A stretch of DNA of 64,000 nt from Mesaphorura yosii. Lineage: Eukaryota; Arthropoda; Collembola; Poduromorpha; Tullbergiidae. The notes under the pieces are model-generated. The model was given only the letters and a program-made list of their open reading frames with translations, was not told the DNA's origin and did not search any database. Shown here piece after piece: positions 2,021 through 63,989 of this stretch (position 1 is its first letter; each line of letters begins with the position of its first letter). A program made the translations under genes and the position numbers. The stretch lies in the NCBI GenBank assembly GCA_009869945.1, contig WIXG01000097.1:124001-188000 (forward strand). The letters are read 5' to 3'.

Positions 2021-2071
2021 AATTGCACCAATAAAAGAAACAACGTTCCATTCAAGCAATGAACATCAAAC

Positions 2072-3426
2072 ATGGCTGTTGTGTCGATTGCGGAGCCTTG
2101 CGACCAGCAGACGTCTGTGAAGGCTTTGGCGCGAGCAGAGTCCGAACTGCTTCACCTCATCAAATACGGGCTGCGGGGCCTGCAATTTTGCGGGTATACA
2201 CCGCTTTCAACGTCCAAGTGCACTTTGGAATGGAGGTGGATGAGCATTCCGTCCGTCTACCAATTTGTATTAATGATTTTCACTGTGCTCACGTTGTGTG
2301 GCTACTTCGTGAACTCGCAGAAAATCCTGCTGAAGTCGAATAATCATAATGGAGACACTGGCGGCCGAACGGAGTTGTTTTCTGGGATACTCCTCGTTCT
2401 GTCAATATCAGGATTCACTTTACTGCACCGGATTTGGGGAATGTTGAGCGCCAGCAGTATGCTGAGCTTCTGGAAGCAAAATGTGCAGTTATTGGCCGAA
2501 TTTTCTAATCGCGGCATTGATTACATGAGCTCACATGATGCTGTACTAGAGAAAATCTACAAGCACAGCAGACGTTCATTCTTTGGATTCACGGCATTAG
2601 TCTTAGTGAACTTCGGGGTCTTTTATAGCGTCCTGGCTTCAGTAGAAGGCCAGAATGTTAAGAAGAATGTTTTCGAGCAAAATTTTGACGAACTGGATGC
2701 GGTTGTAATCGTGTTTTACATGCTGGGCACTTTTTACTTTTATTTGCATTTCACTCACTCGATTTTTCTTACATTCTTCCCAAAGTTTTACGCTGGTCTG
2801 TTCACAATTATCTCGACGGAAGTTGAAACTATCCAGATTGAGCAGCACACAGCTGAAGAAATCATTGCCCAAATCGACAATTTTCTGGAATTACACAAAT
2901 TGGTTCAACGCACAATTGGAAAGTACAATGAAGTGTTTGGAGTAAAGCTGCTGACCGAAGTTATGTTTTGGTGCATCGTCGTCCTGATTTACCTGTTCAT
3001 CAGTACAATTTGGATCTTCAACCTGCATTTGGCATACGCTGCATGCTCATTTCCCACGGTTCTCCTGTTTTCAGCCATGGCCTTCAAGCTTTGCACTGCG
3101 GCAGACGAAACTACGGTGGAATCTAAGAAAATAGTTGACGGGTTGTGGAAATTGGAAGGATTTTACCAAATTCGTACGTCAACGTCGAAAAGGATCGAAA
3201 TGGTGGTGTTGAATTTAAACACCAATCCACCACATGTTTCCGTCGCAAACTTCTTCACTGTTAATCGACAGCTTGCAACGACGGTAAAAATTATTATTCG
3301 AAGTGGACAAATGCCATGGGCATATTCAATTTTACATTCGTTGCCATTTTAACTTTGTAGATTGTTTGCGGAATGCTGACTTACTTGGTCATCTTGATAC
3401 AGTTTCAGTTAAGCGAAATCAAGTGA
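2072..3426 (+). CDS. Gustatory receptor, 7tm_7 family (tandem copy 1)
   Basis: Two exons (2072-3283 and 3361-3426) give 425 residues, the usual size for an arthropod gustatory receptor. These seven-pass plasma-membrane proteins act as ligand-gated cation channels in chemosensory neurons. Hydrophobic segments are visible near residues 65-85, 105-125, 170-190, 215-235, 295-320 and 325-345, with the last in the C-terminal exon. The family signature is split by the intron: exon 1 ends with a VNRQLATT-type stretch and exon 2 encodes TYLVILIQFQ, matching the TYhhhhhQF motif. The start was chosen for the best N-terminus; an ATG at 2059 is in another frame. The gene is paired with a paralogue 400 bases downstream that shares a CGYTPLS motif in the N-terminus and an EVMFWC(I/F)VVL stretch. 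Ligand cannot be inferred. Confidence 0.88.
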
Positions 3427-3738: not shown

Positions 3739-3832
3739 GCGCAATATAATTTATTACGAGGACGTGCTTAGGCCTGAATTACTACACGCTAATTAGTTCT
3801 TGGCTAGCCCCCGTCTAGTGAACTCTGTGAGG

Positions 3833-5282
3833 ATGGTGACAGTTAAAATTAAAGAGGCCTACATGGAAGCCTCGACCCCGGAACTGCTCGCGGAGAAGAA
3901 GCTCTTTGAACTGGTCAGGCACTCGTTTCGCTGCACTCAATTTTGTGGATACACACCGCTGTCCTGGCATAAGAACAATAGCTTGCGTCACAAGTGGTTT
4001 GCCATTCCAGCAATATACCAAATTCTTTTATTGCTTTCGTCTGGCGTACTATCGATTTATTCGGCCACCGAAGTGGATGTGTCCGTTTTCAAGAAGATAG
4101 GCATACTTGGAGAAACAGAAATTCTTAGTGGACTTGGTCTTTCGATGTGCATGATCGTGTTGATCATATTTCATAAGGTCTTGGGCATTTTTGACACAAA
4201 TAAAGTGCTAACATTTTGGGAAAATAACTATCGTCTACTGGCACGCTTTGCAGCGAACGAAATCGATCTGCATTCAACTCATCAGGACAAACTGGGAGCC
4301 ATTCCGAAATCAAACAAGAGAACCATCCAGACATACGTTCTTTTGATTCTCGGAGGGCTTGCACTCGCTGCTGCAGCTGTTGTTTCTGGAAACAAATTTG
4401 TGAACAGTGCGTTGGAGCTCTTATCGCTGCACTTTTTGATTGGACAGATAATTACTGGGCTCCAGTTTTACTCGCATTTTTGCCAGACACTCTGGATCGC
4501 CACATTCATTAAACTGTATGCTGCTCTCTCTTCAATTTTGGCAACAGAGTTAAAATTCCTTCGGCTCAATAAACCGAAGAACGAACTGGGAGAGGGTAGT
4601 TTCAATTCCAGGATTACGGCACTGATAAGATTGTACAAGAATCTGGAAGCTGTGGTGGTAGAATACAACGCTACTTTTGGCACGAGAATTGTCGCTGAGG
4701 TCATGTTCTGGTGCTTTGTGGTCCTCCTGTATACGTTCTTCGGAATTTTGTGGCTTTCGCGAGGAGAAATTTTCTTTTCTCTTACGTCAATTCCATTGAT
4801 TATAATTTTTCTGAGCTCGTATTACCACTTGGGGTCCGACTCTAGCAAACTAAGCTGTGACACTCGTGCGGTTGGAGAGCAATTGTCCGAATTGTATGAG
4901 TTGGCAGAGGTCGACGTGACCAACTTAAGAAAGGTAAAACACCAGCAAATCTTGTCTTTAGGAAATAGAAATTTTGAGAATGAATGAATTCGGAATTTGT
5001 AGATTCAGATGTTGGCGATGAAGTTAAACACAACCCCACCAAAAATTTCTGGAGCAATGTTTTTTAATGTGGACAGGCAACTTTTAAGTTCGGTGAGAAT
5101 GTTTACATTTATTCAAATGTATATGCGTAGTGTTCTGTTAAAATGGTTCTCTTCATCCTTTCTAGACCTTTTGCGCATTGGCGACGTATTTGTTCATACT
5201 CCTGCAATTTCAACTGAACGAAGTCACTCATTCACAATCGACGGGTTCAATAGGCTGTAATTGTTCTGGAATTAAACGCTGA
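3833..5282 (+). CDS. Gustatory receptor, 7tm_7 family (tandem copy 2)
   Basis: Three exons (3833-4933, 5003-5092, 5166-5282) give 435 residues. The ATG at 3833 is the first in frame; sequence before it is open only from a TTG. N-terminal FCGYTPLSW and internal EVMFWCFVVLLYTFF match the upstream paralogue. Exon 2 encodes FFNVDRQLLSS and exon 3 encodes TYLFILLQFQ, the gustatory-receptor C-terminal signature. As in copy 1, the protein should be a seven-pass membrane chemoreceptor. It has one more intron than copy 1, placed between the P-P-K region and the LRKVKHQ region, so the copies differ by one intron gain or loss. The C-terminal tail after the signature is about 20 residues longer and contains two cysteines. 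Confidence 0.88.
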
Positions 5283-6885: not shown

Positions 6886-9800
6886 ATGGATTTCTACGTA
6901 TCAAGGTAAGCGTTAACCGTAGTCAATCTGCAATGGAATGCCTACGTTTGTAGACGCCAATTCGAAGAAATTGTTTCATCACACTTAACTTGTTGAGGGT
7001 TCGTTAGTTCTGTGCAATATGGATTGATGCGAAGTTTGTCACGAAAGACTAATTGTCTTGTGATAAATCTGATACACTCGCGTTTGGATTGATGATGCGG
7101 AGCGGGTTAAATATTAAAACAATGAACTGAATCTTTCGGCTTTCGGGCATAATCTTTTGCGAGACTAGAAGGTATCGTCATTTCATAAATAGGCTGTACG
7201 ACTTCAGCGCTATAGACCAGGTATCCTCTCTGGAAATCACGAGGAGAAATTGCCTGTCCGCTGGCGCTGTACACGCTGAGATAAATTACAAGATCAGTCG
7301 CTCTTTCCTCACAACTCAGTTATATTTTGATTTAAGGACATTTCCATAAATAATGGTAGCATCGAAATTGAAAGGGAATGTTTAGAAATCCTTCGATTCA
7401 GAAGAATGCCTAAATAATCTCAACAATGAGGACAATGCCCGAGTTCGAATTGGGTTCATAATTCAATAAGTTATGGTTTCATATCTCACATTGGCTCATT
7501 TCACAGCCCGTCGACTCTGTCCAGGCGCACGCATTTATGATCCGTGCGGCTGAGAAAGTTGAGTGTATTGGGCTTACCCTTTTCATCTTCTTTTGTAGGA
7601 CGACCTTGCTGCTAATTTTAATGTTATTCATAACTTCGTCCTCGTCCTCGGACTCCTCAACAATCTCAACAACACAGAACCCAATTGCACTTATTCTTGA
7701 GCACAAACAACTCGAACCAATTCTGAGCATCTTCAAGTCTGGAGACGGAGACAAGAAGCAGGAGAAATTGAAAGTATCTGATAGTTCGAAGGTCGAAGAG
7801 GTTGATGAACAGACGACTGCGAGGAGCACGAAGCTCACACCTGACCTTATTCGGCAGCTCCTCGCCTCGTCATTTGAGAAAATTGCCGACGCTCTGGCCG
7901 GGGAAGATGAGACCTTCGTGAATGCAACGATGAGCCTTAATACTACTACAATTGCAGCCGAAAGCCCAGACGGAGACGCAAACGACAAGAGCGAAAAGCC
8001 TCATTCGAGACAGGCGAGAAATGTGGATATTCGAATGCAGCCTTCGATGGGCAACACGACCCGCTCGTCTGCCTTTGGCAGAGCAGTTCGAGGTGAGAAA
8101 CTGTGACCGGATTACACAAGAAGCAAGGAGCACTCAATGAGGAACACGAGATTAAATATGTCAATGTCGCTAATTCCATTCAAGCGAACAATTACTATAA
8201 GCAATATCGCATAATCTTGCATCAGGTCCAGAAACAGCCAGCCCGGGCTTCATGGCTACCGTTCCAAGAGAGATTTTACAGCAATCCTTTGACGTAGCCC
8301 GAGACGACTGGCTTTCGCGACAACGGTCCATTGAGAACATGTGGATGAGCAGTAAAATACTACTACATATTTTTACTTATGTTGTGAATGCCTTTTATGC
8401 GATGCGCTAATTCTAATGCTTTAAGGTGGTGGAGGCTCTGATCCTAGATCGCCAGTCGGTACAGCGTACGCATTCAGCGCTCCTAACGAGCAGGCCTTGG
8501 CCATGTCCAATAATTCAGCCCTGCTCGAAATTGCGTCACGAGCATTCATGCGAAGTCTGAGCCCGGAAGCCCAAAGGGCAATCAGACAAAAGAGACAGAT
8601 TTCCAACATGTTAATGGATCCCAGAATGATGATGATGCCAGAGAACATGATGCAGGTCAACGTAAAGCCATTCGTCAAGGGACCGGACATGTCAAGTTAG
8701 TTTCTACTTCACATCATTGCTTGCTACGTTGAAGTTACGATTTGATTAAATCGTGTTTCTGTCTGTTGCAGTGAACTGTGGAAAGAGTGAACCCGAGCAG
8801 TGTGATCGGGGCACACCATTTCGCACCTTGTCTGGAATCTGCAACAATCTGAGGAATCCTGGCTGGGGAAAAGCGGTTTCAATATTTGATCGCATGCTTC
8901 CGCCAGTTTATTCCGACGGGATCTCCGTGCCTCGAATGCATTCGGTCACTGGACAACTGCTCCCATCTCCACGTTATGTGTCATCGACTGTTCATATTGA
9001 CGTGTCGCACTTGAGTCGAAAGCATACTCTGCTTCTGATGCAGTACGGTCAGTTCTTGGACCACGACGTCACGTTCACACCAGTTCACAGAGGACCCAAC
9101 GGAATTCTGAACTGTCGCTCCTGTTCAAGTACGAAAGAAGTGCACCCGGAATGCTGGCCAATCCAGGTTCCATTCGGTGACACGTACTACCCGGATCGTG
9201 AGATTGCCACAGGCAAAGCGTACTGCATTCCGTTCACTAGAAGTCTGCCTGGTCAACAGAGACTTGGACCGAGAGAGCAGATTAATCAAAACTCGGCGTA
9301 CATTGACAGCAGTCAAGTGTACGGAGAAAATATTTGCAAGAGTATCGGACTCCGTTCACATGGTGGATATTTGAATGGGACACTCCAGCCGCAAGGAAAG
9401 GCTGTGATGCCACAGGTAAACTCTTACTTTCAATCATAAGCAGGCTAAGAACTGAAGATAACCAAGCCGGTGTCTTTTATTTCGTAGACGAATGACATTC
9501 GTGAATGCAAATCGAAGTCTGGATTTTGCTTCAGTGCCGGAGATTCCCGCGCCAGTGAGCAGCCGGCCCTCGCAGCAGTGCACACATTATTTTTGCGCGA
9601 ACACAATCGGCTCGTCGACGGCTTGCACGCTATAAATCCACACTGGTTCGAAGAAAAATTGTTCCAGCAAGCCCGGCGGATTCTGATTGCAGAAAACCAG
9701 CACATTGTGTACAACGAATTCTTGCCGAGAATTATTGGACCAAGCGCCATGAACGCTTACGATTTGAACCTTGAACAAAGCTTCTACTACACACGTTATG

Positions 9801-11164
9801 ACCCAACTTGTGAAGCGTCGATGTACAATGAATTTGCAACTGCAGCGTTCCGTTTTGGGCACAGTCTCATCCGACCTCAACTGCCTCGTATGAACGACCA
9901 CTACCACGGAATGAATCCCACAATTCAGCTTCGTGACGGATTCTTCAATTCCGACATGCTCATGAAGCCACTCATGATTGACGAAGTGATCCGTGGCTTG
10001 CTGGCTGAGCCCATGGAACAGCTTGATCCGTTCGTCACTAACGAGCTCACCAATCATTTATTCGAAGACAAGAACAAGGCGTTCAGTGGAATGGACCTCA
10101 TTTCATTAAACATCCATCGCGGACGTGATCACGGGTTGGACGGGTACAATGCGTATCGCGCAGCCTGCAATCTGCAGAGGGTTCACGTTTTCGAAGAACT
10201 TGCGAGCGAAATTCCAGGCGATGTCATTGAACGACTGAAACTCGTAAGGACTGCTCATATGACGCAGTAGTGGTTAATGTAAAAACACCAACTGAATCTT
10301 TTGTGTTTAGGTTTACACACATGTTGACGATATCGACTTATTTACTGGCGCCCTTGTTGAGCGACCAGTAAAAGGAGGAATCGTGGGACCAACAATTGCT
10401 TGCATTATTGGAAACCAATTCCGGCGACTCCGACAATGCGACCGATTCTGGTACGAGTCGAATGATCCAACTGTTAAGTTTACACCACAACAGTTGGCGG
10501 AAATCAGAAAGACGACCCTGGCTAAAGTGACGTGCGACAATCTTGACATTCCGTCTGATATTCAAAAGCACGCGTTTGATGCACCGCATAATGTTTTGTA
10601 AGTTGGCTAAAATATTTATTTCTTTGGCAAGATGCGTGACAGGTAGGGCATGCGTATGTTTCAGAAATCCTCGAATTCCGTGTGAGAGGCTGCCAACGAT
10701 CGACCTCAACGCCTGGCGTGACCCCATTCCTGGATTTAATGCGCCATTCCCTCCAGTTCCCGCGCCTTATGTCGCTGCACCCGCTCCGGCTGCGTGCAGC
10801 ATTGGCAGCTCTTCAGTTCCTGTTGGAGGCTCCGGCATGGCGTCACCCTGTGTCTCTTGTATCTGCACCAGTGAAGGAGTAAGTGAAGGCAAATTGCAAA
10901 TTCCGTCAATGAGTTCAGGTAGCCCGACATATTGTTTTTTGCCTTTTGCAGACAAAATGTGCATCCCTCCGAATAGTAAATTGCAGCCAACTTCTCCGTG
11001 AAAATCAGCTGGCGAATGTTCTGGCCGACAACGTTTGCACCAATCAATGTGGTTACATGCTCAACAAATCTTCCACTGTCTCTGTCGCCAAACCGTACTC
11101 GAGATTTCGTGCGGTATTCAGGAACTCGATTGGTAAAGCACTGAACAAATTATTCGATTACTGA
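6886..11164 (+). CDS. Secreted animal heme peroxidase, chorion-peroxidase-like
   Basis: Eight exons (6886-6905, 7599-8092, 8426-8695, 8772-9415, 9488-10243, 10311-10597, 10665-10878, 10952-11164) give 965 residues. The 20-nt first exon plus the start of exon 2 makes a signal peptide (MDFYVSR then TTLLLILMLFI). A long Ser/Thr/acidic pro-region follows, with dibasic-type sites near HSRQAR and IRQKRQ. The peroxidase domain starts after C-G-K-S. It holds the distal histidine motif GQFLDHDVTFTP, the catalytic arginine in YDPTCEASMYNEFATAAFR, the proximal histidine in FRFGHSLI, and NIHRGRDHGLDGYNAYR. The C-terminus has a Cys-rich CVSCICTSEG module, typical of insect chorion peroxidases that crosslink tyrosines in extracellular layers. 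It carries no Ig or LRR domains, so it is not a peroxidasin. The substrate and tissue are inferred from the family. Confidence 0.9.
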
Positions 11165-27537: not shown

Positions 27538-27610
27538 GGCCGTGTGGCCTAATGGATAAGGCGTCGGACTTCGGATCCGAAGATTGTGAGTTCGAGTCTC
27601 ATCACGGTCA
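27538..27610 (+). tRNA. tRNA-Arg, anticodon TCG
   Basis: A 73-base cloverleaf without intron. The acceptor arm GGCCGTG pairs with CACGGTC, with one G-U pair at position 2. The D arm is GCCTAATGGATAAGGC. The anticodon arm TCGGA-CTTCGGA-TCCGA carries TCG at 34-36. The T arm is GTGAG-TTCGAGT-CTCAT, and the discriminator base is A. The A box (TGGCCTAATGG) and B box (GTTCGAGTCTC) are intact, so it should be transcribed by RNA polymerase III. It would read CGN arginine codons. Confidence 0.95.
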
Positions 27611-33481: not shown

Positions 33482-34336
33482 ATGAAGGATTTCTGGAGCT
33501 ATGTGATTGGAATTTTTTGGACAGCGTTGTTCTCTCAAGTTCTCCAACACGTCTGCTCTGCACCGGCAGCAGTAAGGCGAGAATATATCATTCGGTACCA
33601 AATTCCAGGTGAGCAAAGTTTATGTTCTGAGTCTACTGGCTACGAATCAAGATAACCAAATATCTTGCCCCGACATTGAAGTATAAAGTGAGCTTGCGCA
33701 ATTAATTCATTATCCCCATGAAATTAATTTAATTTCGCATACAGGTGCCAGCTTAGTGCATTGGAATTACCATCCCGAGTCAAATTATAACCACAAGTAC
33801 GGCCCACTGCACGTTCCTGCTACACAAGACAAATTACTTCCTTTGCAACCCCAAGTAATTCCAACCGCAACTCCACCATGTACTTCAACTGCAAGGACAA
33901 TCACCACCACACAAGCAACGCCAACACAAAGTCCTTCTGAGTTTGGTCAGTGCCTTTGCCTTGCTTGCCTTTCATGCTTTAATCGCAACTTACGCGCAAT
34001 TTTTACGTTTCTCGTTGACCATGATTCTCGTTCAATTTTCTAGGAAACAAACCAAGCGCTGATCACAAGGATGACGAAGCTCTGACGGAGGGTTTTTTGG
34101 AGTGGCTTGACAAGAATCCTGTCCCGAAGCAGCAACAGGCCGTAGCGATCAAACCAGACGACCAAGATGAATTCCCAGTGCTGCAGCCTGAGGATGAGAG
34201 CGAGCACAGTGACTTCGCGTTCTTGTATGTACCATCACGAGGGGTCAAGTGTCCATCAGGTCAGAGGCTTGTGGACGGAGTATGTAGACGACAATTGAGT
34301 TTAACGTTCAGACCTAGACCCAGGCCTAGGCTATAA
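33482..34336 (+). CDS. Secreted protein of unknown function with C-terminal Cys motif
   Basis: Three exons (33482-33608, 33745-33945, 34044-34336) joined by phase-1 introns give 206 residues. The N-terminus is a signal peptide (IGIFWTALFSQVLQHVCSA). The middle is rich in Thr and Pro (TTTQATPTQSPS) and may be O-glycosylated. The C-terminal exon has acidic stretches and ends with CPSGQRLVDGVCRRQ, a two-cysteine pattern found at the end of several arthropod secreted proteins, then RPRPRPRL. I do not recognise a named family. It is convergent with the sulfakinin gene, whose stop lies 361 bases away. Confidence 0.7.
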
Positions 34337-34401: not shown

Positions 34402-34407
34402 AATAAA
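34402..34407 (+). promoter_or_regulatory. Polyadenylation signal of the secreted-protein gene
   Basis: AATAAA 66 bases after the stop at 34336, at a usual distance for a short 3' untranslated region. Confidence 0.5.
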
Positions 34408-34697
34408 ATGAGTGAATTTCACCCAGTTTGGAACTGGTTGCATGTTTATTCATACTCCATTAAAAGAGACATTATTTAAAGCTACAATTTAACTTACAGC
34501 AACAATATGAGTCATGATGAATATTGTATCTTGTTAATTATTACAACCTCTCAAGTATTTCTATACTTGTCCATTATACTTGCGGGTGTTAGAACTCCGG
34601 GTGCATTTGTGAAAAAATTCCGCTTACAATATTAGTACGCGTTGTGCTTTTCTTTGTGATGATCTTCGTAGAAAGTTGCTCCATCAAAGTTTACTAT

Positions 34698-35148
34698 CTA
34701 CTTCCCAAAGCGCAGGTGGCCGTAGTCATCGAAATCACCGCCACCACGATTCTGCCTCTTTCCGAATCTCATGTGACCGTAATCATCATACTGGCGTTTC
34801 TGGACAATGTTGTCGTCGTCGAGAAACAAATCCTCGTCATCGGACCCACTGTTTGTCTGAAATTTTCAATCAGTTAAATGCTTGCAAGATGAGACAGAAT
34901 GAAAAGATTGATACAGAGAAGTGGTTATTAGTTACCCCGAACCGAAACACTCGAAACAATCTGTTGGCGCCTGGATTCACTAAATGAACCTTTTTGGGGA
35001 GCGCAGCTCCTGCACTCTGAGACTGCGATGCGCTATTTGAGTTTGAGTTTGAGGACGCTGGAAATCCCCACGCCGAGCACAAACAGCAAATTACGACAAT
35101 AACTGCGAAAGCGAGTGTAATTGGCTTAGCCATAATTAGAAAGGTCAT
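34698..35148 (-). CDS. SK: Sulfakinin neuropeptide precursor
   Basis: Two exons (35148-34936, 34856-34698) give 123 residues. A start at the second Met (35133) would give 118. A signal peptide ([19 protein letters not shown]) is followed by a Ser/Asn-rich spacer. Exon 2 carries the peptides. After Lys-Arg at 91-92 comes [11 protein letters not shown], closed by Lys-Arg at 104-105. Next is [17 protein letters not shown], closed by a final Lys and the stop. Each Gly would be amidated, giving xxDYGH(M/L)RF-amides. The Tyr next to acidic residues is the expected sulfation site, and the first Gln could become pyroglutamate. Sulfakinins are the arthropod counterparts of cholecystokinin and act on CCK-type GPCRs in satiety and gut motility. 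Two peptides, the second with GGG ahead of the core, is the layout known from decapods. Confidence 0.93.
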
Positions 35149-38100
35149 TAGTTTGATAATTCACAAAAATAATGTCAACACTTGTGCCCTGACTCGGAGG
35201 CTCAGTCCTAAACCAAAGCTACTGCGTTTGTGAGAGGGATCCCGGTAGAGCGAAGGCTATTTAAGCAAATTCTTGCGTTTGCGTCTAGTATTTAAAATAA
35301 CTCCTAGCATCGCATCACTATGCCGTCTTATAGGTTTGTGCCTACGTTGAGCTTGGAGTTTTGAGCTCCCTTGGGTCCTTTCAGCCAACCTCCGGAAAGC
35401 ATTTTTAGAATGACAAAGGCACACACGAAAATGTTGACGTTAATCTAATTTAAGTTGCGTTGAGTTGGTTTGGCCCTGGCCACACCAGCGAGGCGCGCAC
35501 AAGGACTTTTCCGCAATAACTCTTCCTCCTACGAGCCAAGACTTCTTATCTTCTTCAAGCATCGTCATATTAACTCCATCTTATTCTTCATTTATGTCGC
35601 TTACGAAAGATGATTCCATGTAAAATGTAAAGTAAGGGTGTCGCATACGCTTTCTAAGCTCATTGTTTCGGGATCTTTTTTATCGGACACTCGTGGACGT
35701 CTTAAGTATTTCAAGCATGAGCCAGAAAAGATCGGTATTCCATCCGCCTACTGCATCGCAAATACTGCCCGCCTTTAGCTCGGTTAATGAAATAAACTTG
35801 CAAAAGGTCTTAAAAATGTACCCACACAGTGCAGGAGCCTGAATTATAATTTTCCTCTCCAGTAAGCAGGCTGGACAAAGTAGGAGATGATGATTGGCAG
35901 GTGTTGCCCCGTATTCAAATTTTAAATGCGTCAGATGGGACTCCTTTTATGTGCCACAATAGACCGGAATTGAATATTCATGGTCCCTTTGGTCTTTAGC
36001 ATTTTGATCTGCAACTTTTAACACACTTGTGACTTTTTGCATTTTTGCTTTCATTGTGCGAATTGTTCAGAGAGGCAGCGGAGGAAGACATCAAGGTTTA
36101 CGCTGCCGGAGAAGAATCCAAGATAGGAGATAAAATGGTGACGTTCGTCCGAGCAAAGTTGCGTCAACCCTTTCCATTTTCCCGGCATCCTCCTTCAACC
36201 TGCCCCTGCCAAGTTTCGGAGTATATCATAACGATAATCTAATTAAAGCCGGGACGATTCCGCTCAACCCGTTTGCGCATTCCAAAATTAATTTGTTTTG
36301 ATAACGTCGCGCAGGCTTAATTAAATGGCTCCTTCCACGCGAGAAGGATAGGGCGAGATGAGAAAATGAACGAGACTACAAAATTTGTACATGGATACGA
36401 AAAGGTCACACGTGCCGTGCCATTCCACCAGTCCACCACCCACGCATATCCATCTGCCATCGTCATTTCTTTATCAGAAGTTGTAGCCTCGGGGCTCAAT
36501 GACAAAACTGATCTAGCAATTTAGAATTACTGAGTTGTAATTGTCGTTCGTTTCGAAGTCTATTTTCAACCGCGATGCCACTAAGCAGCCAGACAACCTG
36601 ATGTTGTTTCGTAGCATTTCTCTTCAAATATGCAAAAGTATAAGCGGAATTTACCCGTTGAAGACTTTAAATGGAATGACAATTCATTAACTCTGGAAAG
36701 CAAATCAAGAGATTATTTGAGCAGCTATTTGATGACAGCCACGTATCACATTTCCCTTAAAAACATCCGTATTAAATTCCAAGCTCCCCATGCATGCAGA
36801 AGTGGACCGTGAAATTCTAACTTTATGACGCAGTTTGAATGCGAGGCAAACAACAATAAGTTTATAAATTCTCGGAATACTTTTCGTCTTGAATCAGATG
36901 AAAGTCTGCATAATTGCACGTTACTTCCTTCAAAAGTCTAGCCCGCAAAAAAGGAACTTGATTCCGAAAGAATTTTTAGCAAAAGAGTACAGCAAATCGA
37001 GCCCTGAAGACCAAAGACCAACCGTGTAGCGTAATTATACAGTTGTGTGTGTCGATTCAAATCTGAGCAGGATCAGCAGATACCAATAACGAAATGCAAG
37101 TAAGCCTGCAATACAAATAAATTAATTTTAATTATTGTAGACTTGTTTCACTACTTATCTTTCGGGATGATACCATATCGTGTGCCGTGTAGCCGCTGCT
37201 TTCTGCTTGTACGACAGCCACCGCAATCATAAAAATGCTTCTTCCTCATAAAGCAGCAAGCCAAGTCAAGGCAAAGAAACAACAAAAACATAAACGTAAA
37301 ACCAGTTCATGAGCGCAACTACCACGTAAATCTACAACTCTTCCGTTACTTTTTTCACAAGTGCACCTCCGCCGACAGCAGGCACCATGGCACACATGGC
37401 ACACATGGTTCGCATGGGGCATGGCACGGCATGGACATGGCACATCCGACTCGCGAATCACATGGAAGATGGACATAACATCGCATGGGGCAGGAGCAGG
37501 CGTTCGGGGTACGAGACCGGCTCTTACGAATAAAAACAATGAAAGCTAAGTAAACAGAACTGGCTACAAGGCACAGCAATGCATTTGCATTGTAGCTTTA
37601 TAGGTTTGACCTTTCAATGAACTCTGATGCTCAATAAGACTATAAAACGCGCAACCTGACCATGCACCACCACCATCAAGGAATCTTACACAGGAAGACA
37701 ATGAGTTGCACTGCTGCTGCGGACTTATGGCCCTGCATGTAAAATAGATCATACTGGTTTACTGGTTCTCGTGCTTTGGCTATGCTCGGCTGCCGAAGAA
37801 ACACATTGCAGCTCCAAAAAAGTTGCAAGACCAGCAGGACAAGAAACGTACTCCAATGGCCATTAATTCCATATGCATCCTGCCAGCCGCATTAAGCGGG
37901 CAAACAGCAGGGCCAGAACATAAAGCATAGAAGCATGTGACTACCGAGTTGTGAGGCAAGCATAAGGCTTGAAGAACCAAGACAATTAACTTTAACGAGC
38001 ATGGGCTTCATGTATAATGATAAGGAGAATGCCAATCACAATTATAGCTCGTATCTGTCATTTCCTTTTCTCCCATCACAGCAGTTTACCAAATATTCAA

Positions 38101-46900: not shown

Positions 46901-48431
46901 CTTCAGTATTACTAGTTTGATTTTCAATTTAATTGATTCATTTTTAAGTTTACATTTTCCTTTAAATATGAGTAATCGAAAGTTAGTGAAACCAGCGATT
47001 AGTGATGAGTCTGATTTTCTATCGCGTGCGATCCCGATTGTGTATGACCAAAAGTTGTTAATTTTAACTCTGTCTTCTCTTCTCTTGGACCGAATAAGTT
47101 CGGATGAACCTTCTTAATCTTACCAATAGTTGTTCTTATCGTTGTTACATGCCTTAACTTAGTAAACGCTTCAGTAAGTAAACCTTCGGGTCTATATAAA
47201 TACAGAGAAGATTAGCATGGCCCCTGCGCAAGGATGACACACAATTCGTGAGGCGTTAAACGCTTCAATAAAAATTACATTATGCAACATTACATTACAT
47301 TAATAATTAATAATAATACATAATAAATAATTACATTAATTACAGATATGCAATTTATGCAGCTTCTCAGACTGGCAGTCCCATCGGGGTTACTGGCTGT
47401 AAGATTCTAAATGAATGCCTTGTTGAGCAAAGTGTATGACTGAAGTTTAACATCGTAACTAATTTCTGTACAGTTGTTGGAATGCAATCAAAAATATTTC
47501 ATCCGCTGAATGGTGGTACAAACTATGATCTGGATACAGTTAATGCACCATATATTTATATTGGGAATTTCGGTTCATCGACGACAACCTTATGTATTCA
47601 AGTCAAACTTGAAATTATATCTGATCCAATTCCAACGATGGAGCCCGTTGGGTCCGATCGTACTCTGACCGCTGAGACTGAACTGCTGAGCCAAATCTAT
47701 GACTTGTGGTCGTCCAAAACTGGAGCTGATATATTGATCCAGTGTGGTACGGAACTGTTCCAGGCTCACAAGACGATATTATCAGGTATTAAATACTAAT
47801 TTATAGAAAATTAGAATGATGGAGGAGGAAGTTGAATGAGGAATTAATTGTCATTGTTTTTCTAGCTCGAAGTCCAGTATTTGCCAGAATGCTTGAGCAT
47901 GACATGGTTGAAAAGGAGACGCAAAAAATTAAAATTGATGACATCGATCCAATAGTAATGGAGGAAACCCTCAAGTATTTATATTGTGGTGTACTCAACA
48001 TCCCTTTCGATTACGACTTAATGGCTGGATTGCTGCATGCGGCCGACAAAGTATGGTTTAACAATATTTCTAAACTATTGTCAAATCGCTAACATTTTAT
48101 GATGTCTTGTTTCACCAGTACGAGCTTGAGAAACTCAAGACTTTCTGCATGGAAGAGTTATTCAGGCACATTTCGCTAGAAAACGCTGGGCACTTGGCTG
48201 TACTGTCATATCTTCATAATTGGGATCCAACGCTCAAAGATAAAATCAATCAGTATATTCAGAGGTACGTTACCTTCCTTCCTTTTCACTTCTAAAATTT
48301 TGAATTGTGGCTCCAATTCCCATGAAAATGTAATTCCAATGCTTTCCAGAAACTGTGTAACACTTTGGAAAAAGGCCAACTTCCGAAAACTTTTAGTGGA
48401 GCATCCGGCAGCTTTTGGTGATGACGACTGA
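43953..48431 (+). CDS. MATH-BTB protein (SPOP-like cullin-3 adaptor)
   Basis: Eleven exons give 461 residues: 43953-44198, 45989-46060, 46146-46194, 46266-46316, 46395-46452, 46542-46673, 47346-47398, 47474-47785, 47866-48050, 48119-48264, 48350-48431. The N-terminus is Gly/His/Asn-rich and looks disordered, with a basic GNKRLRTG patch. A MATH domain starts near TRTVFNWNIQNF and ends near LCIQVKLEI. The BTB domain includes LWSSKTGADILIQCG, FQAHKTILSARSPVFARML, and a TLKYLYCGVL core. A BACK-like helical tail follows. In SPOP-type proteins the MATH domain binds substrates and the BTB binds cullin-3 for ubiquitination. The long first intron (1.8 kb) contains a decayed antisense gene. The tail ends soon after HPAAFGDDD, without an SPOP-type nuclear signal. 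Confidence 0.87.
44352..45844 (-). pseudogene. Degenerate antisense gene inside the first intron of the MATH-BTB gene
   Basis: Several exon-like open blocks lie in order on the minus strand. They are 45844-45458 (starting MFKFSNLSVLIAASF, a possible signal peptide), 45385-45087, about 45067-44990, about 44937-44660 and 44642-44352. The reading is broken repeatedly. A TGA at 45458 is followed in frame by DPESGDPIFENPDQ. A frame change is needed before the ESNQYCNTC block. A TAG after LGVGA and another frame change precede the DLISYAQLPGGEP block. One more shift lies near 44660. Blocks contain cysteines (CNTCDD, CRQTKCLLRHC), suggesting an extracellular protein. The family is not recognised. 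Several independent lesions make a pseudogene more likely than assembly error, while the good composition of the blocks suggests recent decay. Confidence 0.6.
47200..47257 (+). ncRNA. U6 snRNA-like fragment
   Basis: The bases from ATACAGAGAAGATTAGCATG through CCCCTGCGCAAGGATGACAC are identical to the conserved core of U6 spliceosomal RNA, including the ACAGAG box. The following CAATTCGTGAGGCGTT is slightly diverged. The 5' stem-loop and about 40 leading bases are missing, and there is no clear T run after the end. It sits in an intron of the MATH-BTB gene, on the same strand. It is most likely a truncated U6 pseudogene. Confidence 0.75.
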
Positions 48432-50363: not shown

Positions 50364-52247
50364 CTAGATGGGGATCTCAAAGTTGATGTCAACTTTCGCC
50401 GATCTTGCAAGCTTAACAATGTTGGACAGTTTGACGGCTAGTCTGGCAGCTTCATCTAAATTGTCGCAAGGCAAAATCTTCATCCCCGAACTAGCAATTA
50501 ATACTTTTGCATCATCAACGTTAGTTCCCTGTAAACAGAACATGATCATTATGTAACACTTTCTTCATAAACAGTTTATGTGTGGATTATGGACTTACTT
50601 GAAGTCTGGCAATAATTGGTGTCTTGAGTTTAAGTTCTTGTGCCGCAGCAATGATACCTTCGGCAATCACATCACAACGCATGATTCCTCCAAAAATGTT
50701 GACCATGATTGCATGAACCTACAGTCAGTTAGTGAGAACTTCACTGCTTAACAATGTTGCTTGATTTGGGATTTGTCCTATCGTCTCGTAAAGAATTTGC
50801 CGCCGGAAACTTACCTTGGGATCGGCTGTAATGATTTTGAATGCTTCTTTGACTTGCGATGCAGTTGCGCCACCACCCACATCCAAAAAATTGGCTGGGC
50901 TTCCACCGTGCAATTTGACTAATGAAAAATGCCGAAATTGTACTGGAATCGACCAGATCTAGCTCATTACTATTACTGTCCGTCTAGGTTCACTTACTGA
51001 TGTCCATTGTAGCCATTGCAAGTCCAGCTCCGTTTACCAAACAACCAATGTCGCCGTCCAGAGCGATATAATTTAAGTTGTGCTTTGCAGCTTCAACTTC
51101 TTTCTCATCTTCCTGAGTCCAGTCCCTCAGATCAAATATTTTCTTTTGTCGAAATTCAGCATTGTCATCAAATCGAAGCTTGGCGTCCAAGCACATAACT
51201 ATGAAGTAGAAAATTAGTCATGGATGCTAAATAATAATACTCTACAAATTAATTGATAGAAGCCTTACATTCTCCATTGGAATCCTCTGCCAAGGGATTG
51301 ATTTCAACCATCAGAGAATCAGTTTTTTTGAACATTTCATAACACTTGAGGAACATCTCGGAAATTTCTTTACTACGATCTCCAAATCCAAGTTTTTGAG
51401 CTACAGATAAAGCCTTTTGTGGGGTGAGCCCCTCGACGATGTCGATTGGTTCTTTCAGGATGGCATCAGGATTTTCTGCAGCTACATCTTCAATATTTAC
51501 ACCACCTTGTGATGAAGCAATTATTACAGGACCCTAGGTACATACGTAAAAATTAATTTTATTAATTTACTATTACTTAACCTTAGTTGAGTTAACAATA
51601 TGCGAGGGACATCGAACATACCGCGAAAGCTCTTTCCATCATAATGCAAAAGTAGTACTCCTTTCTTGGATACTTTCTCTCAGTTATCATGACCGAATTG
51701 CAAATTCGACCTTTCTCTCCCGTCTGCTTGGTCACCAAAAAGTCTCCAATCATTTTTCCTGAAATTTCTCCGGCTTCCTTCGGGCTGGTAGAAAATGGAA
51801 GAAGTTCAATCGGAGCCGAGTGAATAGATAAAATTACCAGTTATTATTAGCCTTACGAAAAGACCAGTTTGACACCCCCTTTTAGACCACCTTTAAAACC
51901 ACCCTTGCCTCTTCCACCGGTAAGAACTTGTGCCTTGATAACAAGATCCTTTGCTTTTAAGTCTTCAGCAATTTTGACCGCCTCGCCTGCACTTTTCGCA
52001 ACTCCAAACTTTGGGACGGGAATTCCGTTTTCTGACAAAATTGTGTAGCTAACATATTCATGAACGTTAAGAAATCTTCGAGTTTCTTGCAGGAGGTTCT
52101 AATTACCCAATATAAAATAATGGATTAATGAATCAGTACCAGCCATTAAGCATTAACCCTTAAGTAATGAATAGACCATTGAGTGTTTACCTGAGGTGTC
52201 AAAACTCTCGACACTCCTAGCGCAGATCTGGTCAAAATATTAGCCAT
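50364..52247 (-). CDS. SUCLA2: Succinate-CoA ligase beta subunit, mitochondrial (ADP-forming type)
   Basis: Eight exons (52247-52191, 52098-51857, 51784-51622, 51533-51269, 51198-50998, 50918-50815, 50718-50599, 50528-50364) give 438 residues, the normal family length. A basic N-terminal presequence ([16 protein letters not shown]) is followed by the ATP-grasp domain, with [20 protein letters not shown] for nucleotide binding and [26 protein letters not shown] supplies metal ligands. The CoA-ligase domain has [29 protein letters not shown] and [13 protein letters not shown]. The enzyme interconverts succinyl-CoA and succinate with nucleotide phosphorylation in the TCA cycle, pairing with the SUCLG1 alpha subunit. 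Similarity is closer to the ADP-forming isoform (for example [16 protein letters not shown]) than to SUCLG2, judged by eye from memory. Confidence 0.95.
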
Positions 52248-57856: not shown

Positions 57857-60800
57857 TCAGTTTTCCCCGAGAAATGGCAAGCTTCCTTTCCCGCTTGTGT
57901 CCTCACTGCCAACCCCAGACTTGGAACCTTCTGGTGGTTTGTAATGCGGGTTCGGCTTTACCGTTCCAGTAAACTTGAGAGCAAACTTCAACTCGGAGAC
58001 CATTTCCTCGTGTGCCGATTTCTGCAATTAAAGTTAAAATTAGTATTTTTTATGCTAGTCGGCGTTTAATGAATAAATTACGTACATCCGTCATTCCTGC
58101 TGACTGTTGTTTCCAACCCCAAATGAACTCTCCAATATTGACGAGCATGGCAGCAAAACAACCTCCCACCAGAACAACGAATACACCACCTACGTTCGCC
58201 AATGCCAAAGCTTCCACATTTCCACTCACTCCAGATCCCTTAAGCCAATGAAAAGAAAACTCATTAGTACCGAAGGATATGCGATTATTCCTGCCTTCCG
58301 CCTTAGCGTACCTCGCAAGCCGGCGGATTCACTTTTTCCTTCCACCACTTCCGTTTGAACTTTGTAAGTTCACCTAGAATTGAAAATGGGTTTCAAATAT
58401 TAACAACTACGAATCAAAATGACTTCTGCCAACCTCTTTCTTGCAACTGAAGTATTGCACCGTTGAAGTCTCCGAGATAACTTGAATTTTTAGGCAGCAC
58501 AATCCCGTAGCCTTTGTTATCCAGCAACCCGCCCAACTGCGCCAGGCCACACTCAATTTCTATGTTGTAGTCGATCAGCGTTGACTCCATGAAGAAAGCA
58601 TACTTTCCCTTATCCCTCTTCACTCGATTAATACCGTCGATATTTTTCTCCATGTATGGCGGCGGTGACATTTTTTCCATCTTGAGATACGCGTCGTGAG
58701 CAATTGTCCCCGGCTGTCCATCTGAAAACATTTTTCTATTGAATCCATCTTGATCACAGCAAAGTTTTTTCGATTACTGTTGGAACCTTTGAAGAAATTT
58801 CGAGTGCTTCCTCGACTAACACAACCATATTTCACTTTGTCTTGATTTACTAAATCTTTCAGATCTTTAATGCTGTCATCTTTGTCTTGAACAATGAGGA
58901 AAAGTGCCAAACCAGCAGTGTAAGAACTGACCATGATGAGGGTGAAGAACCACCAAATTGCACCTACAATTCTCGTTGAAGTGGCCCTAAAAATGTGAAA
59001 AATGAAATCAACTCGCAAGTATCTGTAAATCTGTCCACTACGAAGTAAGCATGACTTACTTTGGAGCAATATCAGACCCCTGAAAAGAGAATAGATAATG
59101 AGTCCAGATTACTTCATTGTTAAAGGCATCAATTAGGAAGGACTTTAACCAACCTGTTGCATGATTGATCCTACGGCAAACCAAATACTGTTTGACAGAC
59201 TGAACTGATTGTGAAGCTTTGTTGGATTTTGAATGCAGGGCATTGGGCAGTCCCACTCCTGAAAGGATGAAGTGCGGATTTGAATATAAATTGGTGATTA
59301 AGCGCTGAACTCAATACAATGTATTACCTTTGGCGAAACTCTGGCAATAATGAAGAGGGTTAACGAGACTCCGAAGAACGCTAAAAGCGTGAACATCCAA
59401 ACCTCAATTGCAAAGGGGCTCATAAACGACAGCAGACCAGGTGGCTTGGCCATGGGCGTGACGTATAAAATTGATATGCCCTGATTATTGAAACAAATAA
59501 TTGATACTTAATGATAACAGGCCCGGGGGTTTAAGGCAGATACCACACACAAAATCTATTCTGATCAGATTTTTACCAAATTTTGGTGCGGCATAGTAAA
59601 ATCCACATCTCTCTGGCGAATTTTATTAATTGCAAGGTCCCCAATTGCAATATCTGCTGTTTTCTCAACAATCTCTCTGATCATTCCATCCCACCTCTTC
59701 GTAGTTTCATTCCAACCTCCGTAGCTGGTGCCATCGTAGACTAGCTCGATCTCGTAGTCGAACTTGAGTAGCTCGGATAATCGGTGAATCAAGTCAATGT
59801 TGTATCCTTCGAAGCGGTCATTTCCCGACAAAGCGGATACGTTCTCCTTGAGCTTACAAAATGGCCAGCTGACAATTGTTACCACTCGAAATTTTCTCTG
59901 GGAAATCGGGAGAGTGTCTAAGTACTCCCGATCAGTGCTATTGTGAGTCTGCTGCGTCTCTGCAGCCGGCCCGTCCATGGCAAATTTCGTGACACTTGAC
60001 CATGTCCCATACTTTTCAATACCGTCTGCTTCGAGCCCAACCACATCCATCACAACATCAGTTCGAAATCCACTTTGCCCAAAACTGATCGGACCGGATA
60101 AGCCCTCAAATTGAGTCTAACAAAAGATGTTAGGAAAACGTTAAATTTAATTAACCATGCGCCCCGAAATGAAGTAGGAAGAGGAATTTTACCGTTTTCA
60201 TGAAATTCATCAGCGTACTTCCGTGACCAGATTTCCAATCGTTACCAGCACATTGCAAGGTTTGCGTATTGATTTTATCAGATTTTTCTAACTTTGGTAG
60301 AATATGCCCAAATAATTGCAGCGCGTCATAAACCAGCGCAATATTCAACTACAATAATAGAAAAACTGAACAGAAATTACAATGGAACTAATGAAAATGA
60401 CGCTACGTGCTTTACCGGCATTGCTTTAGAACTTGAAATCAGACGTTGTACGGTTTGTTTAGTGAGATGAGCATCTCTCCACGAGACGCTACTTGAAAAA
60501 CTTAATTGTGATTGTAGTACTTCAGCTTCTTGTAGCTTATGATCTAAACCAGCCAATGAGTTAAATTCGGAAATAACACGGCGAACTTCCGGACGGTCAG
60601 GATTAACCAGACGATACGCATAGATTGGAACCTTGCCATATTTGTAATCATCCAAATTCATAGTATGAATGTCCTGCAGTCGGATGAAATGTTCATAAGG
60701 TTAAACCGCAACAAGACTAGATAAACATACGAGTTACCAGCGAGGTTAGGAAGTATTGATACTGTCGGTTCATCAAGCCAACTTGTTGTGCTTGTTTCAG

Positions 60801-62538: not shown

Positions 62539-63989
62539 TTAGACGCCTGTTAATTTTGGATGCATATGAATAGATTTGATCTTGTGATATAGCCTTTTTT
62601 GATAATTACTAACGTCGGGAAGATTCGGTTGCTTCTTCCAGCCCCAGAGGAATTCACTCGCTGTCATCAATACGCCGAGTATGCAGCCCGCAACAAGTAC
62701 CACAAAGATGCCGCTTAGATTGGCCAACTCCAATGCTTGGACACTGACGCCACTTAAGCCAGCTCCCTAAAAGTATAATTAGCAGTACACTTTTGTATTT
62801 TTCAGTTGTAAGAAGACCATTACCTCACAAACTGGAGGATTCACTTTATCCTTCCACCATTTTCTCTTTAATTCAGTGAGTGTTCCCTGCTCTTGCAGGT
62901 GCAGGATTGCTCCATTAAAGTCGCCGAGATCTGTAGAATCTGGAAAAAGAAATCGGCAATCAAAATGTTAAAGGAAGAGATTCAATTGTAAAAGATTCAG
63001 GGCGCTTTACTTTTGGGCAGCACAATTCCGTATCCTTTATTGTCTAGCAAGCCTCCTAAAAGCCAAATTACACATGCTTAAACGGAACACGGAAAGAAAG
63101 TTTCCTTAAATGAATATATACCTAATTGCGCTAACCCACACTCTTTCACCACATTATACTCAATCAAGGTGGACTCCATTATGAATGCATAATCTCCATG
63201 TCCTGACATTACTTTCTTGATGCCTTGAATGTTCTTCTCCATGAAAGGACTTGGCTTCATTTTCTCCATCTTCTCCATTGCCTGCTTGGGAATTGAGTTG
63301 TCAGGAGCTCCCTACAAATACAAGAATTCTACATGAAAAAAATCGCCTGCCCAATCAGAGTGCACATGTATATGCGTGGGAATTGTCATACATTGAAGAA
63401 CTGGTAAGTACTTCCGCCGCTAACGCAGCCGTACCGAACTTTGTCTTGGTTCACCAAGTCTTTCAGATCTTTGATGCTATCGTCCTTATCTTGAACAATC
63501 AGGAATAACGCGAGGCCAGCTGTGTATGAACTGACCATAATGAGAGTGAAGAACCACCACATGGCGGCAACAATTCTTGTCGACGTGGATTTCGGAGCCA
63601 AATCAGACCCCTAAAACAAATTCAAAACAATCCAGAAATTGTGCATATTACAATTCAGAAAGTACCTGTTGCATTATTGCACCGATTGTGAACCAGATGC
63701 TATTTGATAAACTGAACTGATTGTGGAGTTTCGTCGGGTTTTGTATGCAAGGCATCGGACAATCCCATTCCTTGATAAAGAGCCATGACAACTCATGATC
63801 TCTAATCTGTGTTAATATTATACGCAGTCAGACTACCTTTGGTGACACTCTTGCCACCACGAACAAAGTGAGGGAAACGCCAAAAAACGCAACGACAGTG
63901 CAGATCCACACTTCCAAAGCGAACGGATTCATGAATGAAAGTAAGCCTGGAGGTTTCGCCATTGGAAGAACGTACAGAATAGATATGCC
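62539..63989 (-). CDS. Kainate-type ionotropic glutamate receptor (tandem copy 2), cut by the window end
   Basis: Seven exons are visible: 63989-63837, 63770-63666, 63610-63392, 63311-63122, 63055-63011, 62939-62824, 62766-62539. They encode M1 to the C-terminus, and the amino-terminal and S1 regions lie beyond 64000. The pore loop reads AIMQQGSDLAPK, M3 again has SYTAGLALF, and S2 has SGGSTYQFF and [10 protein letters not shown], with the ligand-binding Glu. M4 is [20 protein letters not shown]. It is close in sequence to copy 1 but differs in splicing. It lacks the intron after APK, has two introns where copy 1 has none (after AQLG and after VLPK), and lacks the copy 1 intron after LQER. 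The C-terminal tail is shorter and unrelated. Confidence 0.88.

Follow-up and report, generated by a model that had tools for sequence, protein, structure and literature searches.

A probable two-peptide sulfakinin precursor gene and its likely receptors in an arthropod genome

Results

The feature at 34698–35148 of the window, by which we mean the whole 64,000-nucleotide stretch of DNA analysed, is almost certainly an arthropod sulfakinin precursor gene, of the invertebrate cholecystokinin/gastrin type, from which two peptides would be processed and act on receptors in the manner proposed below. The initial annotation had taken it for a sulfakinin precursor with two peptides and an intron in its coding sequence, and this identification is supported by a splice-consistent structure, a Pfam match and a single match in the genome, as well as by the presence in the same genome of two CCK-receptor-like loci and a tyrosylprotein sulfotransferase. 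The gene is an ordinary, complete-looking addition to a well-known arthropod family, a relative of vertebrate cholecystokinin, and leaves the general picture of that family unchanged.

Structure of the gene

The coding strand is the minus strand, a point that the initial annotation leaves unstated; translation of 34698–35148 in frame 1 of the plus strand is interrupted by several stops. Read in the direction of transcription, its parts are the following.

35258..35264, minus strand: TATA-like element TTAAATA, 131 bases before the ATG (a motif match only)
35134..35148, minus strand: alternative in-frame ATG upstream (35148), adding MTFLI, with a weaker start context (from the list of open reading frames and the sequence)
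34936..35133, minus strand: coding part of exon 1, with 66 codons for a signal-peptide-like start and a spacer that runs to ...RVFRFG (from translation, the donor being in phase 0)
34857..34935, minus strand: intron of 79 bases, GTAACT...TTTCAG, with GT..AG ends and phase 0 (from the sequence and its translation alone)
34698..34856, minus strand: coding part of exon 2, comprising an acidic spacer, KR, peptide 1, GKR, peptide 2, GK and the stop TAG
34445..34450, minus strand: candidate poly(A) signal AATAAA (a motif match only)

Joining of the two exons gives a product of 118 aa. The coordinates in the initial annotation, including those of the intron at 34857–34935, were right (phase 0, GT..AG), and its end point at 35148 corresponds to the upstream in-frame ATG. 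Of these two starts, the ATG at 35133 has the better context (−3 A, +4 G), and the N-terminus that follows has a hydrophobic core as judged by eye. When the intron is read through from exon 1 an in-frame stop is encountered; retention of the intron would therefore lead to a precursor without sulfakinins. Two further TATA-like strings, again identified by motif only, start farther upstream at 35295 and 35332.

The existence of two in-frame ATGs (35148 and 35133) raises the question of whether the gene is real but its first exon wrongly joined, with another start, an extra 5′ exon or another donor, in which case the precursor would differ upstream of the peptides. The simplest join, however, already produces a signal-peptide-like start and an intron that is true to frame, and the length of the resulting precursor resembles that of the rock lobster, at 115 aa. 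We therefore consider a different exon 1 quite improbable.

Evidence for sulfakinin identity

Both repeat units of exon 2 contain the C-terminal core (D/E)YGH(M/L)RF followed by Gly and one or more basic residues. Across the six frames of the 64 kb window, Y[GA]H[MLI]RFG has two occurrences, both in exon 2; a set of 100 first-order Markov simulations of the same length has none. The joined protein matches the Pfam family Sulfakinin (PF08257) in two stretches with a score of 23.2 bits, above the cut-off of 20; the E-value of 5.3e-5 is modest and the model only 9 positions long. A search of solved structures with the precursor gave no relevant match (one match, E 8.1), as expected for a short precursor.

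Over 11 aligned codons, the two repeat units have 4 codons in common, 5 with silent differences and 2 that encode different residues, such that 9/11 residues are shared. This codon pattern would fit an old duplication kept by purifying selection. In the genome as a whole (93,006,257 bases in 1127 contigs), a 31-aa query containing both peptides finds one match at E ≤ 0.001. The single match is in line with the presence of one sulfakinin gene in invertebrates other than spiders, as given in the excerpt of PMC8921109 used here. At the same threshold, this one query revealed no second sulfakinin gene, although a diverged copy could escape it.

Outside the Sulfakinin repeats, the precursor has no Pfam match at E ≤ 1, which could be taken to favour a sulfakinin pseudogene or silent copy, in which the motifs persist without being expressed. 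Against this, both exons are open and agree in their GT..AG ends and phases, most of the differences between the two units are silent, and the locus is the sole match in a genome that has retained CCK-receptor-like loci, so that a dead or silent copy is very improbable. An RFamide-like open frame that arose by chance or is unrelated to sulfakinins, for which it might be said that the coding sequence is short and that the window contains 245 stop-to-stop frames of at least 70 aa, has next to no probability given the two DDYGH(M/L)RF-GK units, the dibasic sites and the signal-peptide-like start, and is rejected on the absence of the motif from all 100 simulated windows and the Pfam match above cut-off.

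The two peptides and their proposed processing

The sulfakinin precursor gene thus encodes, in the last part of exon 2, the following products.

34764..34793, minus strand: sulfakinin 1, 10 aa between KR and GKR, with pyroglutamate, amide and 1–2 sulfates predicted from the family
34707..34754, minus strand: sulfakinin 2, 16 aa, or 13 aa if a single Arg is also cut; one Tyr
34698..34706, minus strand: C-terminal Gly-Lys-stop, where amidation would take place and the precursor ends (from translation)

The core of peptide 1, with its QYDDY start, is YDDYGHMRF and that of peptide 2 is FDDYGHLRF. It had been claimed earlier that the precursor ends in Gly-Lys-stop and that peptide 1 contains two Tyr and peptide 2 one, and the translation agrees on each count. 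The computed [M+H]+ of peptide 1 in its pyroglutamate form, unsulfated, is 1313.54, and that of unsulfated peptide 2 is 1835.82 for the long form or 1454.64 for the short form; each sulfate on either peptide would shift the mass by +79.96.

The end of exon 1, LFRVFRFG (34936–34959, minus strand), was considered as a third amidated peptide and rejected, as its Gly has no basic residue following; the residues that come next are Thr-Asn if the transcript is spliced and Val-Thr in the unspliced frame.

By analogy with the family, the precursor would enter the secretory pathway of neurosecretory cells, where convertases would cleave it at KR, a carboxypeptidase would remove Lys/Arg and the exposed Gly would be converted to a C-terminal amide on each sulfakinin. 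The N-terminal Gln of peptide 1 may cyclise, and tyrosylprotein sulfotransferase would be expected to sulfate the Tyr of DYGH. The order in which these enzymes act is partly a matter of general knowledge. The targets of the two amidated peptides would be either or both CCK-type receptors of the same genome, with effects on feeding, the gut and related functions. In the family, the peptides are described as acting via CCK-type receptors to limit feeding and to tune gut and other functions (excerpt of PMC8921109).

Likely receptors and candidate processing enzymes in the same genome

The initial annotation had suggested a search for a CCK-like receptor in the same genome. With TM6 of the CCK receptor as bait and E-values up to 1, we obtained 8 genome matches, the best two at 2.3e-10 and 4.0e-10 and the next at 0.007; the best 2 of the 8 were compared with solved structures. 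These are two neighbouring receptor-like loci (L032 and L033) of a single contig, C422, with opposite orientations and ~6 kb between them. The comparison covers their TM6–TM7 exons alone, stretches of 90 and 85 residues, which match solved structures with best E-values of 1.9e-21 and 2.3e-19, respectively. For each locus, CCK A and B receptors make up the top 9 among the 60 rows shown; the receptor families that follow begin at E 5.4e-11 and 3.6e-09. From these stretches, the two loci are likely to be sulfakinin receptors. The generic 7tm_1 family has 158 matches in the genome, and additional receptors of the CCK type may be present.

A tyrosylprotein sulfotransferase locus is found in the genome, where solved protein-tyrosine sulfotransferases match with a best E of 3.7e-90, and the P domain of proprotein convertases (P_proprotein) has 5 matches. 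Cu2_monooxygen has 41 matches, including 11 within open frames that reach 400 aa or more. For the amidating enzyme, the stretches around 7 of the weaker Cu2_monooxygen matches were fetched, frames were obtained from 4 of the 7, and one fragment (L057) was compared with solved structures; all 13 of its 13 matches at E ≤ 1 are to peptidylglycine amidating monooxygenase, and weak, with E from 0.009 to 0.27. A motif pattern for the amidating enzyme had 0 exact matches in the genome. On general grounds, the amidating enzyme is likely to be present.

Two of the best Cu2_monooxygen matches (L041 and L043) we take to be DBH/MOXD-type relatives. As a separate observation, the 41 matches, which lie on many contigs, may reflect an expansion of DBH/MOXD-like genes.

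Comparison with known sulfakinins

The published sequences are taken from excerpts of the papers cited, and the likenesses and differences below extend as far as these. The Phe before DDY, the single Lys after Gly and the presence of two peptides had initially been picked out as special, but each has a precedent and all three are ordinary. FDDYGHMRF is the C-terminus of a Tribolium and a Drosophila sulfakinin (PMC3981819), FDDYGHLRF is contained verbatim in a Bombyx sulfakinin (PMC3534322), and two is a common number of peptides per precursor (PMC8921109). The three insects are alike in the core FDDYGH(M/L)RF and commonly have two sulfakinins per species; none of the insect sequences compared has the QYDDY with which peptide 1 begins, and YDDYGHMRF has 0 occurrences in the Bombyx sulfakinin paper.

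In the decapods, the sulfakinins of Homarus are EFDEYGHMRF and a peptide of 13 aa, the counterpart of sulfakinin 2 (cited in PMC4018349), and those of Macrobrachium are QFDEYGHMRF and a peptide of 14 aa (PMC4449106). Sagmariasus, the rock lobster, has an architecture similar to that found here, with peptides of 10 and 13 aa in its precursor of 115 aa (PMC4018349). As excerpted, each of the three decapods has two peptides, one that is short and ends in YGHMRFa and one that contains Gly and ends in DDYGHLRFa. For Macrobrachium, the cleavage sites K96R and R113 taken with the peptide lengths imply, by arithmetic from the excerpt of PMC4449106, a single Arg after the second amide Gly, so that a single basic residue at this position is not new.

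Given FDEYGHMRF in the decapods and YDDYGHMRF here, peptide 1 differs from its decapod counterparts as much as peptide 2 does. A mild oddity is that, relative to decapods, the Phe and Tyr that precede DDY/DEY have changed places between the peptides. Peptides with two sulfated Tyr have been reported from white shrimp, oyster and Ciona (excerpt of PMC8921109). It is conceivable, although we think it unlikely, that with the swap the site where double sulfation might occur passes from the Leu-type to the Met-type peptide, such that in this lineage their sulfation states would be exchanged, and perhaps also which of the two neighbouring CCK-type receptors each prefers.

A peptidome study of Daphnia pulex is said to have reported two sulfakinins. 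This species resembles the present genome in having both a sulfakinin precursor, already known as EFX80896 (cited in PMC3462748), and a reported sulfakinin receptor (PMC8921109), again as far as the excerpts go. For branchiopods other than Daphnia pulex, nothing on sulfakinins appeared among the literature matches listed. The exact pair of peptides encoded here was not found in the literature covered, by a search that a paper on a single peptide lacking the word sulfakinin would escape, and the excerpts contain no comparison of sulfakinin intron positions.

The gene adds one sulfakinin precursor with its exon limits and likely receptors, which should help when cholecystokinin-type signalling in crustaceans is compared with that in insects. 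With two peptides that differ in the number of sulfatable Tyr and two CCK-receptor-like loci, a small and direct test of their pairing becomes possible.

Other neuropeptides of the genome

A pattern search of the genome for crustacean cardioactive peptide gave 0 matches. A SIFamide precursor was found by pattern and reads ...EATGNARKLPPFNGSIFGKR... The consensus for SIFamide is XYRKPPFNGSIF, and Daphnia pulex is described as an exception, without Tyr-2 and with Leu for Pro-4 (PMC3749230, on ice krill, in excerpt). On this description, the peptide found here is like that of Daphnia pulex in being without the Tyr and having Leu after Arg-Lys and, unlike it, has kept two Pro. The SIFamide would thus suggest a branchiopod, although another species than Daphnia pulex, with which the small genome and the single short intron agree as far as they go.

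Neighbouring features in the window

Tail to tail with the sulfakinin gene lies an open frame at 34025–34333 (plus strand) with a Cys-containing C-terminus (GVKCPSGQRLVDGVC) and no Pfam match above cut-off. It has an AATAAA at 34402, and the distance between the closest AATAAA strings on the plus and minus strands is ~40 bases.

Towards the start of the window, two adjacent chemosensory-receptor-like frames at 2063–3349 and 3797–4984 (both plus strand) have FCGYTPLS in common; the former matches Pfam 7tm_7 with E 9e-12 and the latter has no match above cut-off. An exon of an animal haem peroxidase (E 1e-90) is located at 9488–10267 (plus strand). Towards the other end, 51252–51533 (minus strand) is an ATP-grasp exon (E 9.3e-24), perhaps of the succinyl-CoA ligase beta subunit, and 59568–60116 (minus strand) is an ionotropic glutamate-receptor-like ligand-binding exon (E 2.3e-31). 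Frames near 63081–63610 (minus strand) resemble 58417–59108 by eye, suggesting a second copy. The window also contains a U6 snRNA at 47180–47267 (plus strand; Rfam, 65.7 bits) and a tRNA-Arg(TCG) at 27538–27610 (plus strand).
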